Source: Carnobacterium alterfunditum DSM 5972
Lineage (GTDB): Bacteria > Bacillota > Bacilli > Lactobacillales > Carnobacteriaceae
Assembly: GCF_000744115.1 (NCBI RefSeq)
Contig: NZ_JQLG01000004.1
Coordinates: 2,020,190-2,084,189, forward strand
Direction: 5' to 3'
DNA: 64,000 nucleotides
Of the stretch, positions 2,383-54,877 are shown piece by piece (within the stretch, counting starts at the first letter, position 1; each line of letters begins with the position of its first letter). Made by a program: the position numbers and the translations under genes. The notes below the pieces were generated by a model, which made no database searches, was not told the origin of the DNA, and worked only from the letters and a program-made list of their open reading frames with translations.

Positions 2383-3043
2383 ATGTACAATGTTTATATT
2401 GATGAAAAGGGTCCTCAAGAAAGCTTTAGGATATCAGAACCATTTGATTTTGAAAATAAACTGAAGTATGCAGATGATAAGATGCATTCGTACGTTGCAA
2501 ATATCTGCTCCATACCATCTTCTAATATGTCGAAAGTTGAAGCAGCTTATATAGAACTAGAAAACAAATACATGACTACTCGTCCAAAGCTAAAACTAGA
2601 CGAATTAAAAGGAAAAACTATTTTAAAAGGGAATTTTAAATTCGGAGTAGCAAGTATGAAGGTAAATGAGCTTGATTTTTATAACTCCTTACTTACTATG
2701 TTGAAAAAATATCGTGTTCAAAATTTATTTTTTAGCATCAGTAAAATGTCTGTCATTGTTAGTGCCAGACTGAGTGACTGGATTTTAGAACTTGATTCTA
2801 AAAGATTTATAGATTCTGCAATTCGAGTACAGTACACACTTGCTAAGTACGCTAATAATGAAGCGAACGAAAATGTCATTAACAAATTGCTAAATAAATT
2901 CGAAGGGACTAAAGACTTGCTTAACGCTATAAAATCACACATGCAAGAAATAGTCGATAAAAATGTAAATAATAAAAGAATGGAAAGCCAGGTAAATGAG
3001 TACAAATACATAATTCAAATAATAAGAAAATACAATTATATAA

Positions 3044-48570: not shown

Positions 48571-48612
48571 AAAAAACTCTCATTTCCTTTAAAAGGAAAT
48601 GAGAGTTTTTTT
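48571..48612 (+). terminator. Terminator of asd-dapA-rnjB
   Basis: AAAAAACTCTCATTTCCTTT pairs almost perfectly with the following AAAAGGAAATGAGAGTTTTT, ending in T7. Confidence 0.93.
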
Positions 48613-48624
48613 GTTAGGTGGCAG

Positions 48625-48662
48625 AAAAAAGGAGCATTCACAAAAATGTGAATGCTCCTTAA
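48625..48662 (-). terminator. Terminator of the opuA operon
   Basis: AAGGAGCATTCAC/GTGAATGCTCCTT stem with six-base loop; on the - strand T6 follows. It is 18 bases after the last opuAC stop. Confidence 0.92.
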
Positions 48663-48679: not shown

Positions 48680-49573
48680 TTATTTTGTTACGCCTTCAGT
48701 CCATTCAGCGACACGGTCTGGATTTTCTTCGATCCAAGCTTCTGCTGCATCTTCAGGATCTTCACCTTCAGAAATAGCTAACATAATGCTTTCCATTTCT
48801 TCAGTAGTCCAATTAAATTGATCTAATACTTGATAAGCTTCAGGTAGATCTTCTTCTAAGTCTTTACGAGCCATAGTGTTGATTGTTTCTTCTCCACCAA
48901 ATGCACCTTCAGGATCTTCAAGATATTTCAAGTCATAAGTGGCGAACATCCAATGTGGAGACCAACCAGTGATGATAATTTCTTCTTCATCTTTAATAGC
49001 TTGACCTAATTCAACAGTCATTGCACCAGATGAAGAAGTTTTTAGGTCCCAATCACTCAAGTTAGGATAAGTTTCTAGCGCTGTTTCAGTTGCGGCAACG
49101 ACACCAGCACCAGGTTCGATACCTGTGATGGTCATTTCAGCTTCATCAGAAAGGTCAGCGATAGAATCGACATCCATATATTCAGGAACAACTAAACCAA
49201 CTTTTGCGCCTTCTAAGTTCGAGCCTAAGTCAACCACTTGATCGCCATACTCTTCAAATTGAGAACCATGAGTTTCAGGTAGCCAAGCAGCTACCATTGC
49301 ATCAGCATCGCCACTAGATACGGCTTGCCACATAACAGCGTTATCTAATGGTGTCAGTGATACGTCATAGCCTAAGTTTTCTAAAACTTTACCGATAACG
49401 TTAGTAGAAGCAACTTCACTATCCCATTCTACATAAGCTAGCTCAATTTCTTGGCCATTACCAACGTTTGTAGCTTCATCGTCGGTTGATTCTTCTGTTG
49501 TGCAGCCTGCAGCAACTAATGATAACCCAAGACCTGCTGTAAGACCCAAATATTTCCAGTTTAATTTTTTCAT
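48680..49573 (-). CDS. opuAC: Glycine betaine-binding lipoprotein, copy 3 of 3 (operon-distal)
   Basis: 297 residues. The lipoprotein signal has Lys-rich start and lipobox LVAAGC with the acylated Cys24. The ligand cage of OpuAC-type proteins is made of Trp residues; candidates are AYVEWDSE (W50), AVMWQAV (W82) and GWSPHWMFATYD. This copy carries changes relative to its siblings, such as Asp for Asn in GDADAMV and VVDLGSN in place of VNLGVN. Its own ribosome binding site AAGGAGAG precedes the ATG. It delivers betaine to OpuAB. Confidence 0.92.
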   Translation of the reverse strand: MKKLNWKYLGLTAGLGLSLVAAGCTTEESTDDEATNVGNGQEIELAYVEWDSEVASTNVIGKVLENLGYDVSLTPLDNAVMWQAVSSGDADAMVAAWLPETHGSQFEEYGDQVVDLGSNLEGAKVGLVVPEYMDVDSIADLSDEAEMTITGIEPGAGVVAATETALETYPNLSDWDLKTSSSGAMTVELGQAIKDEEEIIITGWSPHWMFATYDLKYLEDPEGAFGGEETINTMARKDLEEDLPEAYQVLDQFNWTTEEMESIMLAISEGEDPEDAAEAWIEENPDRVAEWTEGVTK

Positions 49574-49643: not shown

Positions 49644-50537
49644 TTATTTTGTTACGCCTTCAGTCCATTCAGCGACACGGTCTGGATTCTCTTCGATCCA
49701 AGCTTCTGCGGCGTCTTCAGGATCTTCACCTTCAGAAATAGCTAGCATAAGGATTTCCAATTCTTCAGAGGTCCAGTTAAATTGATCTAATACTTGATAA
49801 GCTTCAGGTAGATCTTCTTCTAAGCCTTTACGAGCCATAGTGTTGATTGTTTCTGCATCACCAAATGTTCCTTCAGGATCTTCAAGATATTTCAAATCAT
49901 AAGTGGCGAACATCCAATGTGGAGACCAACCGGTGATGATAATTTCTTCTTCATTTTTAATAGCTTGACCTAACTCAATAGCCATCGCACCAGATGAAGA
50001 AGTTTTAAGTTCCCAATCACTCAAGTTAGGGTAAGTTTCAAGCGCTGTTTCAGTTGCGGCAACGATACCAGCTCCAGGTTCGATACCTGTGATACTTTTT
50101 CCAGCTTCATCAGAAAGGTCAGCGATAGAATCAGCGTCCATATATTCAGGGACGACTAAACCAACTTTTGCACCTTCTAAGTTCACGCCTAGGTTAACCA
50201 GTTGGTCGCCATATTCTTCAAGCTGTGAACTATGAGTTTCAGGCAGCCAAGCAGCTACCATCGCATCAGCATTGCCACTAGATACGGCTTGCCACATGAC
50301 GGCATTATCTAATGGTGTCAGTGTTACATTATAGCCTAAGTTTTCTAAAACTTTACCGATAACGTTAGTAGAAGCGACTTCACTGTCCCATTCTACATAA
50401 GCTAATTCAATTTCTTGTCCATTACCAACGTTTGTAGCTTCATCTTCGGCTGTTTCTTCTGTTGCGCAACCTGCAGCAGCTAATGATAACCCTAAACCTG
50501 CTGTAAGACTTAAATATTTCCAGTTTAATTTTTTCAT
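49644..50537 (-). CDS. opuAC: Glycine betaine-binding lipoprotein, copy 2 of 3
   Basis: 297 residues, no length change against the other copies, with about one residue in ten different. Lipobox LAAAGC (Cys24) and all cage Trp residues are kept. The intergenic spacer also repeats (AAAGGAGAAATTTATCAATT before the ATG), showing that gene plus ribosome binding site were duplicated as a unit of roughly 0.96-0.99 kb. All three copies look functional. Confidence 0.92.
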   Translation of the reverse strand: MKKLNWKYLSLTAGLGLSLAAAGCATEETAEDEATNVGNGQEIELAYVEWDSEVASTNVIGKVLENLGYNVTLTPLDNAVMWQAVSSGNADAMVAAWLPETHSSQLEEYGDQLVNLGVNLEGAKVGLVVPEYMDADSIADLSDEAGKSITGIEPGAGIVAATETALETYPNLSDWELKTSSSGAMAIELGQAIKNEEEIIITGWSPHWMFATYDLKYLEDPEGTFGDAETINTMARKGLEEDLPEAYQVLDQFNWTSEELEILMLAISEGEDPEDAAEAWIEENPDRVAEWTEGVTK

Positions 50538-50630: not shown

Positions 50631-51524
50631 CTATTTTATTACGCCTTCAGTCCATTCAGCGACACGGTCTGGATTTTCTTCGATCCAAGTTTCTGCTGCA
50701 TCTTCAGGATCTTCACCTTCAGAAATAACTAACATAAGGCTTTCCACTTCTTCAGAGGTCCAGTTAAATTGATCCAATACTTGGTAAGCTTCAGGCATAT
50801 CTTCTTCTAAACCCTCACGGGCCATAGTATTGATTGTTTCTTCTCCGCCGAATGCACCTTCAGGGTCTTCAAGATATTTCAAATCATAAGTGGCGAACAT
50901 CCAATGTGGAGACCAACCAGTGATGACAATTTCTTCTTCATTTTTTATAGCTTGGCCTAACTCAATAGCCATCGCACCAGATGAAGAAGTTTTAATTTCC
51001 CAATCACTCAAGTTAGGGTAAATTTCTAATGCTGTTTGAGTTGCAGCAACGATACCAGAACCAGGTTCGATAGCTGTGATGCCCTTTTCAGCTTCATCAG
51101 TAAGGTCAGCGATAGAATCGGCATCCATATATTTAGGGACAACTAAACCAAGTACTGCACCTTCTAAGTTCACTCCTAGGTTAACCATTTGGTCACCATA
51201 TTCATCAAGCTGAGGACCATGAGTTTCAGGCAGCCAAGCAGCTACCATTGCATCAGCATTGCCACTAGCTACAGCTTGCCACATGACGGCGTTATCTAAT
51301 GGTGTCAATGTTACATTATAGCCTAAGTTTTCTAGAACTTTACCGATAACGTTAGTAGATGCTACTTCAGTATCCCATTCTACATAGGCTAATTCAATTT
51401 CTTGACCTTTACCAACGTTTGTAGCTTCATCTTCTGTTGTTTCTTCTGTTGCGCAACCTGCAGCAACTAATGATAATCCTAAACCTGCTGTAAGACTTAA
51501 ATATTTCCAGTTTAATTTTTTCAT
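50631..51524 (-). CDS. opuAC: Glycine betaine-binding lipoprotein, copy 1 of 3 (next to permease)
   Basis: 297 residues, lipobox LVAAGC (Cys24). It shows small differences from the other two, such as LGLVVPKYMD and ETWIEENP, scattered over both lobes but outside the cage segments. As the copy beside opuAB it probably keeps the original position. OpuA couples ATP hydrolysis to betaine uptake against osmotic stress. Confidence 0.92.
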   Translation of the reverse strand: MKKLNWKYLSLTAGLGLSLVAAGCATEETTEDEATNVGKGQEIELAYVEWDTEVASTNVIGKVLENLGYNVTLTPLDNAVMWQAVASGNADAMVAAWLPETHGPQLDEYGDQMVNLGVNLEGAVLGLVVPKYMDADSIADLTDEAEKGITAIEPGSGIVAATQTALEIYPNLSDWEIKTSSSGAMAIELGQAIKNEEEIVITGWSPHWMFATYDLKYLEDPEGAFGGEETINTMAREGLEEDMPEAYQVLDQFNWTSEEVESLMLVISEGEDPEDAAETWIEENPDRVAEWTEGVIK

Positions 51525-51590: not shown

Positions 51591-52436
51591 TTATTTTTTG
51601 TTTAATTTTTGTGTCAGGCGATCAATGATGATTGCCAAAACAACTAAACCTAAACCAGATACGAAACCTGTACCGACTTGAGCACGTTGTAGGGAAGAAA
51701 GAACTTCTCTACCCAGACCAGGTGCCCCGATCATTGAAGCAATAACGACCATTGATAAAGCCAACATAACGGTCTGGTTGATACCAGCCATAATAGTTGA
51801 TTTAGCTAAAGGCAATTCGACTTTAAATAATTTTTGAGCGCCTGTGCTACCAAATGATTCAGCAGCTTCAACTAGTTCAAATGAAACTTGTCTGATTCCA
51901 AGGTTAGTAAAACGAACAGTGGGTGGGATAGCAAAAATTAAAGAAGCGAATACTCCTGGGACCATACCAATACCAAAGAACGCAACTGCCGGAATTAAAT
52001 AGACAAATGCAGGCATTGTTTGCATGAAATCAAGAATAGGAGCAATAATTGCATTCGCAATTTTACTTTTAGCCATCAAAATCCCAAATGGAACACCAAT
52101 AACAATAGACAATAAACTAGCAACCAAGACTAAAGTCAAGGTATTCATTAAGTCTGACCAAAGATCTTGATTATAAATGAACCAAAGACCAATTATTGAA
52201 AATGTAGCTAATCCGAATGTTTTCTTTGAAGCAAAGAAAGCAATCGCAGCAATAATCAAAATAAACAAAATAGGAGGAACTAATAATAAGGTTTCCGTTG
52301 TAAATTCCATTGCAATTTCAGAATATTTTTGGATTGGATCAAACAAGAAAGCAAAAGTATCTGTTAACCAAACTGTAAGGTTCTCAACTCCGTCTGCTAC
52401 GGGTAATTCTGGGATGATATCTAATATACTAGACAT
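51591..52436 (-). CDS. opuAB: Glycine betaine ABC transporter permease
   Basis: 281 residues with about six to seven membrane helices. The ATPase-contact loop (EAA motif) is seen as [20 protein letters not shown] (about 191-210). The start is ATG 52436, overlapping the opuAA stop by eight bases with GAGG nine bases upstream. It is a separate protein, unlike the permease-binding protein fusion of Lactococcus OpuABC. Confidence 0.93.
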
Positions 52437-53625
52437 TTTCAAGGACCTCACTTTCTCCTGCAAGAGCGGCTATTACAGCACCTCTGACAATAATACCAAC
52501 TAATTTACCTTCATCGACAACTGCCACTGGTGTAGTTGAATCATGAATAACTGTAAAGATATCATTCATTGATGTTGTTCTAGTAACAGTGGGGATATCA
52601 ACTTTAAGGATACTATCAATTGTTTCAATATTTTTCTTACGAGCAGCTGAAGCATCTTCAGCTGTGATATAGCCTAAAAGATTGCGTTGGCTATCTACAA
52701 CTAGCATACTTGATATTCCTTGTTTACGCATTTGCTCTAGTGCAAAGCGTGGTCCGTGATTTTTAATATTTAAAGTCTCCGGACGTTGCATAATATTTTC
52801 GGCTGTCAATACTTTAGAACGATCAACGTCTTCAATGAATTTTTCAACGTAATCATTTGCAGGGTGAGTTAATATTTCTTCAGGTGAACCAATTTGTACA
52901 ATTGATCCATCTTTCATTAAGGCAATTTTATCGCCTATTCTTAAAGCTTCATTTAAATCATGAGTAATGAAGATAATGGTTTTTTTAACATTGGATTGAA
53001 GCTCGATTAATTCATCTTGCATTTCACGACGGATCAAAGGATCTAATGCTGAGAACGCTTCGTCCATTAATAAAATTTCAGGATCATTAGCTAAAGCACG
53101 TGCTAATCCAACTCTTTGCTGCATTCCACCGGATAATTGATTAGGGAATTGATCTTTATAATCGCCTAATCCTGCATTATCTAAAGCTTTTTGAGCTTTT
53201 TGTTCTCTTTCAGCTTTTTCCATACCTTGAATTTCTAATCCGTATTCGGTATTTTCTAGAATAGTCCGATGAGGGAAAAGACCAAAATTTTGGAAAACCA
53301 TACTCATTTTTTCTCTTCGTACTTGACGCAATGCTTTCTTATCCATAGTAGATAAGTTTTCATTATCTATATAAATATTTCCTTTAGTTGGATCAATCAG
53401 ACGATTGAACATTCGAACAAGAGTTGATTTCCCACTACCGGATAATCCCATAATAACAAAAATCTCACCCTCTTCAACCGTAAAACTAACATCATCGACT
53501 CCAACAGTGACCCCAGTTTCTTTAAATATTTCTTGCTTAGATTTCTGTTGATCTAACAGTTCTAAGGCTTGCGTTGTTTTTTTACCAAAAACTTTTGTTA
53601 CATTTTCAATAGTTATTTTTGACAA
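52429..53625 (-). CDS. opuAA: Glycine betaine ABC transporter ATPase with CBS domains
   Basis: 398 residues from TTG 53625, seven bases after AAGGAGC; longer readings lack a site. Walker [10 protein letters not shown] (about 62-70), signature [15 protein letters not shown] (about 163-177) and Walker [13 protein letters not shown] (about 184-195). Two CBS domains (from about 280 on; [18 protein letters not shown]) sense ionic strength, or c-di-AMP in related systems. First gene of opuAA-AB-AC-AC-AC. Confidence 0.94.
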
Positions 53626-53815
53626 AATAACAGCTCCTTCCCATTTTTTATTTATGAATCTCAAACTAGCTAACCAAAAATGATTAAGATAGAATTGAAA
53701 CATAAATTGATTAGCAAACCACCGTCAAAAGTGGTTTTTCAAAAAATCTTTTTTAAGAAAAATTAACATCAATTATTCTAAAAAAAAACATTTCTAAATT
53801 AGATACAAGTGTAAG

Positions 53816-53834
53816 TGTAACATGAATGTCATAA
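53816..53834. promoter_or_regulatory. Imperfect palindrome, operator candidate 1
   Basis: TGTAACATGAATGTCATAA has the same centre as the perfect palindrome at 53955-53980, with one mismatched pair in each arm. It sits at the start of the first tandem repeat copy. Confidence 0.45.
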
Positions 53835-53955
53835 AAAAAAAAATAAAACCATTTTCAAAAATAAGCTTTAGCAGCCCTTTTTTGCTTTCGCAGTAGACCT
53901 TAGAGCATATAACAAAAAAGGAATATTTTTTTAAAAAACGTTTTCATTCATACAT
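53821..53955. repeat. Tandem direct repeat, copy A
   Basis: About 135 bp matching 53964-54098 at an offset of 143 bases. Shared blocks include CATGAATGT, AATAAAACCA, TAGACCTTAGAGCATATA and AACGTT. Differences are many small substitutions and indels, so the duplication is old. Confidence 0.75.
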
Positions 53956-53980
53956 AATTATAACATGAATGTTATAATTA
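53955..53980. promoter_or_regulatory. Perfect 26-bp palindrome, operator candidate 2
   Basis: Twelve-base arms TAATTATAACAT and ATGTTATAATTA flank a GA centre. It overlaps the start of the second tandem repeat copy. A dimeric repressor such as an osmolyte regulator is plausible; no regulator gene lies in the window. Confidence 0.5.
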
Positions 53981-54098
53981 AAAAAATAAAACCACTTTTA
54001 AAATAAGTTTTAGTAGCCATGTTTTACCCTTGCAATAGACCTTAGAGCATATACTAAAAAAGTAATATTTAAAAAAACGTTCTCATTCCTCTATTTAT
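53964..54098. repeat. Tandem direct repeat, copy B
   Basis: Second copy of the repeat described at 53821-53955, closer to the HD hydrolase gene. Confidence 0.75.
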
Positions 54099-54211
54099 GA
54101 GTTGCCTTAAAAAAGAGTGGTATGAAGTTAGAGATAAAACTTGTGATTTTTTTGTGAGATTGATAGACTTATTTCATGTAATTCAAAGATTAGAAAAGAG
54201 GTAGAGGATCA

Positions 54212-54877
54212 ATGTTGTCAAAGGTGCAGAAAATAATAATAAAGGATACTGAAGAATATGTCTTTCAATTGCTAAAAGATGATGCTAGTGGCCATGATTG
54301 GTGGCATATCGATCGTGTCAGAAAGCTAGCTAAAAATATAGCTGAAAACGAACTAGAAGACATAAACCTCTTTGTCTGTGAAATGGCGGCTCTTTTGCAT
54401 GATGTAGCAGATGGGAAGTTAAATAATACAGAAGCTGAAGGAGAAAAGAAAGTTAGAAATTGGCTATCACAGTATCGATTGACTAAAAAAGAAAGTCAGC
54501 AAATAATGGAAATTATTCTTCATCTATCTTATAAGGGTGGAACAAATAAAGTAGTCTTATCTTCTATAGAAGGGAGAATCGTTCAAGATGCAGATCGTCT
54601 AGATGCAATGGGCGCAATTGGGATTGCACGAACGATGGCCTATTCTGGGTCGAAAAATCGTTTGATTCATGACCCAGCAAAAAAAGCACGTGACCATCTT
54701 ACAATAGAAGAATATCGTTCTGGCGAAGATACTGCTATTATGCATTTTTATGAAAAATTATTAAGATTAAAAAATGAAATGAATACAACTGTTGGGGAAC
54801 AACTAGCAGAAAAAAGGCACAGTTATATGGAAGATTATTTGAAAGAATTTTACGCTGAATGGGATGGAGAAAGATAA
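54212..54877 (+). CDS. HD-domain phosphohydrolase (YpgQ-like)
   Basis: 221 residues. HDWWHIDRVRKLAKNIA (His about 27-31) and AALLHDVADGKL (HD pair about 63-64) give the metal site, with a late Asp in IVQDADRLDAMGAIGIAR (about 127-144). This pattern matches the YpgQ/YedJ group, where Bacillus YpgQ is a nucleoside triphosphate pyrophosphatase. The ATG follows AAGAGGTAGAGG. Monocistronic or with the GNAT gene 54 bases later. Confidence 0.87.
   Translation: MLSKVQKIIIKDTEEYVFQLLKDDASGHDWWHIDRVRKLAKNIAENELEDINLFVCEMAALLHDVADGKLNNTEAEGEKKVRNWLSQYRLTKKESQQIMEIILHLSYKGGTNKVVLSSIEGRIVQDADRLDAMGAIGIARTMAYSGSKNRLIHDPAKKARDHLTIEEYRSGEDTAIMHFYEKLLRLKNEMNTTVGEQLAEKRHSYMEDYLKEFYAEWDGER

Follow-up and report, generated by a model that had tools for sequence, protein, structure and literature searches.

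Control of the busA/opuA promoter by BusR has been described in PMC8517857 and PMC10243994, with GAC-N22-GTC as the BusR operator (PMC8517857), and according to PMC6207618 opuA-type clusters are under a GbsR/OpuAR repressor in some bacilli. With regard to promoter architecture, tandem bacterial promoters consist of two promoters of the same direction placed shortly apart before one operon (e.g. PMC8830795), and bidirectional promoters arising from the symmetry of the -10 element have been described as well (PMC10268837, PMC12825309). The opuA locus of Carnobacterium alterfunditum DSM 5972 encodes the same transporter as the BusR-controlled loci. However, no BusR gene was found in the genome, GAC-N22-GTC is absent from the opuA upstream region, and the palindrome located there has a centre of 2 bp and not of 22 bp. 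The locus resembles the tandem promoters in that two putative promoters of the same direction precede one operon, although here they are recognisable copies from one duplication and their activity is predicted from sequence. The locus thus represents an ordinary, well-supported case of tandem promoter duplication which is mildly interesting with regard to promoter evolution.

The window, i.e. the whole stretch of 64,000 nucleotides that was analysed, contains the opuA operon and a divergently oriented gene encoding an HD-domain phosphohydrolase (Table 1). The gap between the TTG start codon of opuAA and the HD-domain gene comprises 586 bp with an A+T content of 75%. OpuAA is encoded in all 18 genomes of the family that were examined, the closest named relative found being Carnobacterium jeotgali (94% for OpuAA).

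Table 1. Features of the opuA locus of C. alterfunditum DSM 5972, given as positions within the window.
Feature	Position	Strand	Remarks
opuAC genes (three, in tandem)	48680-49573, 49644-50537, 50631-51524	-	OpuAC domain shown for the copy at 50631-51524
opuAB	51591-52463	-	permease
opuAA	52432-53625	-	ATPase of a glycine betaine ABC transporter, carrying CBS domains; starts with TTG
opuAA 5' leader	53626-53812	-	partial conservation within the genus (mean identity per column 76%, 6 sequences)
Proximal copy of the opuA promoter unit	53812-53949	-	direct repeat; aligns with the one copy that each of five congeners has at equal distance from the start codon
Proximal extended -10, TGTTACACT	53814-53822	-	putative; T located 197 nt upstream of the start codon of opuAA
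Position of the TGAAAA-N7-TTTTCA dyad over the -35	53837-53857	-	TGAAAA kept, TTTTCA reads TTTTTT
Distal copy of the opuA promoter unit	53955-54088	-	direct repeat
Inverted repeat, 12-base arms, 2-base centre	53955-53980	.	symmetry also places TGTTATAAT on the + strand, 53970-53978
Distal extended -10, TGTTATAAT (consensus)	53957-53965	-	putative; from sequence and congener alignment
HD-domain phosphohydrolase gene	54212-54877	+	divergent from opuAA

The gap contains two direct repeats of about 135 bp each which are 82% identical and offset by 142-143 bp, the start-to-start spacing being 139-143 bp depending on the repeat family. The two copies at an offset of 143 bases pointed out in the initial annotation are therefore real: the best 91-base self-match within the gap comprises 71 of 91 positions, far above the maximum of 52 obtained from 100 dinucleotide shuffles of the 586-bp sequence. 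No third copy of the unit was detected in the 2.62-Mb assembly, the next best match covering 22 bases (E 0.09). Each of the five congeners read (G001-G005) has one copy of the unit in its opuA gap according to alignment and model (plain blastn alone recovered it in three of the five), and their opuAA-HD gaps measure 435, 449, 460, 450 and 449 bp, respectively, compared to 586 bp in the window. Since the congeners carry single copies and their gaps are shorter by about one unit, the second copy is attributed to a lineage-specific tandem duplication. Both window copies furthermore pair in a tree of 11 unit sequences with a support of 94/94, just below the star of the tool and in a tree in which four forks stay open, and they share 12 derived changes among the 103 columns in which at least four of the five congeners agree. 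Based on this pairing and the shared derived columns, the simplest assumption is that the duplication took place in the lineage of this species. A very weak additional model match just upstream of the copy of G004 (E 0.135) is read as a chance match in A-rich sequence. These comparisons support a duplication in tandem of the promoter unit of opuA in this lineage and, with it, the presumed nature of the repeats as a duplicated promoter or control region.

The most conserved stretch of the unit on the minus strand ends in ATTCATGTTACACT (ATCCATGTTATACT in G004). The proximal extended -10 is found in identical form in four of the five congeners, with G004 having TGTTATACT, and the distance from the -10 to the start codon, 197 nt in the window, is 196-210 nt in the congeners. 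Both copies have a TGn extension and a hexamer compatible with sigma-A, the proximal one matching TATAAT at four of six positions and the distal one at all six. By comparison, the -35 position, located 17 bp upstream of the -10, reads TTTTTT in both copies (two of six matches to TTGACA), so neither has a hexamer near TTGACA at a spacing of 16-18 bp. Four of the five congeners have TTTTCA (four of six matches) 17 nt before the -10 and G004 has TTTTTA. TTTTCA is also found in genus g3, at a distance of 17 nt in three of the four sequences and of 18 nt in the fourth, and in genus g2, where all three sequences have it at 18 nt. The TTTTCA half has thus been lost in both window copies, and the presence of TTTTTT in both most simply places its loss before the duplication. 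A missing -35 element can be compensated for by an extended -10. A consensus promoter scanner reported neither of the two putative promoters; its four other sites compare to 4.2 expected from shuffles and include two overlapping plus strand sites ending at 53958 and a minus strand site inside the leader (53728-53699), which is a possible alternative promoter for opuAA.

A sequence-only model, R1, built from 11 units of 10 genomes and used to score 150 first-look candidates per genome, indicates that a unit of about 95 bp carrying the promoter and a TGAAAA-N7-TTTTCA dyad over the -35 is conserved in two genera. For each of the 11 genomes from g1 and g3 the best match was located upstream of opuA; ten of them had supplied training sequences, and the held-out genome G016 reached an E-value of 3.6e-16. 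The distal window copy, itself a training member, scored 2.2e-16. Two held-out g2 genomes gave a weak match at opuA (G011, 1.2e-5; G006, 8.8e-4), and in five further genomes (G008, G009, G010, G013 and G015) the best match, with E-values of 0.02-0.05, was located away from opuA. Among the best 150 of 4483 candidates in the genome of C. alterfunditum, the next best hit after the two opuA copies had an E-value of 0.024, although weaker sites may have escaped this selection. The dyad pattern TGAAAA-N5..9-TTTTCATTT occurs at three places in this genome, none of them at opuA. No description of such an opuA unit was found in a limited literature search, and we know of no regulator that explains this opuA-specific element. 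A role of the unit as a structured RNA leader was rejected on account of its consensus energy of only -1.2 kcal/mol with two short helices, one of which corresponds to the TGAAAA/TTTTCA dyad; two of the nine pairs of the consensus fold show changes on both sides. A known RNA family was rejected as well, as the best Rfam match scored 26.5 bits where 52 are required.

The initial annotation had described a palindrome at the start of each copy, the second one being perfect over 26 bases. The distal palindrome is indeed strong, but owing to its non-symmetric GA centre 24 of 26 bases are symmetric, and the proximal one is poor, with 7 of 12 pairs and four uninterrupted pairs from the centre. Arms of at least 12 bases with a spacer of up to 10 were obtained in 9 of 2000 shuffles of the gap, which is unusual for one gap, though not astronomically so. 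At the corresponding position the congeners form four (G003 and G005), five (G001 and G002) or six (G004) of the 12 pairs, and values of two, two, three and three were found in g3 and of six, five and five in g2, while the background in opuA upstream regions is 3.5 +/- 1.7 pairs at any position, with 11.6% of positions giving at least six. The comparison with the congeners showed the promoter half of the dyad to be conserved and the mirror half to vary. However, the core ACAT-NC-ATGT is present in both window copies and in G004, hence the mirror half must in part predate the duplication. A genome search for TTATAACATGAATGTTATAA allowing up to three mismatches returned five rows, i.e. the distal copy on both strands, the proximal copy once and two other places, one inside an ORF of 325 aa and one 46 bases before an ORF of 211 aa, compared to three matches for the reversed TTATAACATGAATGTTATAA used as control. 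The expectation that the palindrome would recur at other osmolyte genes was thus not borne out, as neither of the two other places is next to an evident osmolyte gene and there is no clear excess over the control.

As candidate regulators of the palindrome, dimers of the BusR or GbsR kind had been suggested. The BusR homologue adjoining opuA in the Jeotgalibaca caeni locus L119 (GntR and TrkA_C domains) was used as query against the 18 genomes of the family and gave GntR-type matches in all of them, mostly limited to the winged-helix end, the best one with 54.8 bits over residues 11-85 of 214. Domains were read for the two longest matches, covering residues 7-164 (G012) and 16-136 (G011), which are GntR-UTRA proteins, and for the TrkA_C proteins of C. 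alterfunditum. All four of the latter lack GntR, three being TrkA_N-TrkA_C proteins and one a chloride-channel protein (Voltage_CLC), and a busR gene combining a GntR winged helix with RCK_C/TrkA_C was thus not found in this genome. The GAC-N22-GTC motif was detected in none of 17 opuA upstream regions of the family (350 bases each). Among 80 control loci from genome_contigs, two of which have fewer than 350 bases upstream, it was present in seven and in the strict form GTGAC-N22-GTCAC in six (four Vagococcus, one Dolosicoccus and one Streptococcus); the exact pattern missed L119 despite the BusR homologue encoded there beside opuA. At the Vagococcus and Dolosicoccus loci the strict motif brackets a TGTTA- or AACAT-like core. 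With the gene not found and the motif absent from all 17 upstream regions, BusR and its operator were rejected as the control of opuA in C. alterfunditum, which suggests that opuA may be controlled independently of BusR, a c-di-AMP repressor, in these Carnobacteriaceae. The genes encoding OpuAR are located adjacent to opuA. None of the 14 MarR_2 matches in the genome, which may include GbsR-type proteins, is located in the window, and consequently no gene for a MarR-type regulator was identified next to opuA with this profile and an adjacent GbsR/OpuAR was rejected. The CcpA site pattern, which we take to be WTGAAARCGYTTWNN, has a site in the proximal copy, but with three genome matches compared to six for its reversed control it was rejected.

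In our opinion the data are probably best explained by the lineage-specific duplication having created two tandem sigma-A-type promoters that face opuAA, with the palindromes lying on their extended -10 elements and with compensation as the likely function. The proximal promoter (P1, TGTTACACT) and the distal promoter (P2, TGTTATAAT) would be located about 143 bp apart. The ATGTTAYAMT half of the palindrome would be held by promoter function and its mirror half would have arisen in this lineage, apart from the ACAT part that is also found in G004. The doubled promoter together with the consensus -10 of P2 may then maintain or increase the transcription of opuA following the decay of the -35 from TTTTCA to TTTTTT. 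Counting against this explanation are the TTTTTT at both -35 positions, the silence of the scanner, the rarity of a 12-base dyad in shuffles and the lower fit of the distal copy to the conserved columns, as if it were decaying. The latter would also be expected if a neutral duplication had left the distal copy as a relic without function, so that the proximal promoter alone mattered: the distal copy matches 75 of the 103 conserved columns compared to 82 in the proximal copy and has TTAAAA where most congeners have TTGAAAA. Nevertheless, the exact TATAAT with a correctly placed TG in the distal -10 is the opposite of decay, and we regard a relic as possible but doubtful. An origin of the repeats from a mobile or dispersed element, as might be supposed from a length of about 135 bp, AT-richness and a palindrome at one end, was rejected as extremely improbable, given that the genome has no further copy, that no Rfam family scored above threshold and that the relatives have single, position-conserved orthologous copies at opuA.

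The palindrome itself might be regarded as a newly evolved operator of a dimeric regulator that lies over the -10, blocks RNA polymerase upon binding and was duplicated together with the promoter. Besides the rare symmetry, this would agree with repressors often targeting the core promoter (PMC12825309), and its best point is the ACAT-NC-ATGT core shared by both copies and G004, which places part of the mirror half before the duplication. On the other hand, the proximal copy and the congeners show the low pair counts given above, no other site in the genome exceeds the control and no candidate regulator was identified, neither BusR nor its motif nor a MarR_2 match in the window. Thus, of the repeated operator and promoter units proposed in the initial annotation, the duplicated promoter holds, whereas the operator, whose dyad is not conserved in the five congeners, is improbable, and its assignment to a dimeric osmoregulator is unsupported. 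Still less probable is that the palindrome renders the distal promoter bidirectional, towards both opuAA and the HD-domain gene, as has been described for promoters with a symmetric -10 (PMC10268837, PMC12825309). Although TGTTATAAT is present on both strands and a plus strand site of the scan has a -10 (CATAAT, 53953-53958) that extends across the left border of the palindrome, the two TATAAT hexamers are separate and do not overlap, the predicted starts are about 35 bp apart compared to the defining 7-25 bp (PMC10268837), and the number of scanner sites is at the level of chance. Furthermore, a promoter-like block (TTGTGA-17-TAGACT, 54141-54169, plus strand) within a stretch conserved in the congeners is located nearer to the HD-domain gene. 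A broader and rather speculative scenario, which we consider unlikely, is that Carnobacterium and another genus of the family control opuA without BusR via the element of about 95 bp, and that the decayed dyad, the duplicated unit and the new palindrome on the -10 represent an operator turnover in progress.

The duplicated control region had also been paralleled with the triplication of opuAC, a comparison that appears to be loose. Three opuAC genes are indeed present, as in two of the four g3 genomes read, while G004 has two and the other four congeners have one. However, WIN_3 and G004_1 group together in the tree of the proteins (100/98), and this part of the expansion is therefore older than the split between C. 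alterfunditum and G004. The tree suggests more than one opuAC expansion. Since G004 shares the older opuAC expansion yet has one promoter copy, the amplifications of opuAC and of the promoter look like separate events, although selection for an increased uptake of glycine betaine could underlie both. The locus is a clean natural example of cis-regulatory duplication, found at an operon for osmostress which also gained binding-protein genes, and the conserved 95-bp unit makes osmotic sensing at an opuA promoter that is apparently independent of BusR testable.

The opuAA leader of about 190 nt contains the conserved blocks CAATTTATG, TTCATA and TAAAAA. No conserved base pairing was found in it by eye, and a long-range ATTTATG/CATAAAT pairing was rejected, being broken by CATACCT in G001 and G002. 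A strongly conserved opuA upstream block of their own, located some 150 bases before position 3001, was observed in the Trichococcus loci L058-L064 and L066 (including a record labelled Sedimentibacter); it is devoid of the BusR motif and ends in ATGTAACACTATATTTGTAC, from which L059 deviates by one base. At the other end of the operon, two strong inverted repeats with arms of 20 and 14 bases are located between the convergent RNase J and opuAC genes (48571-48660) and probably act as terminators.
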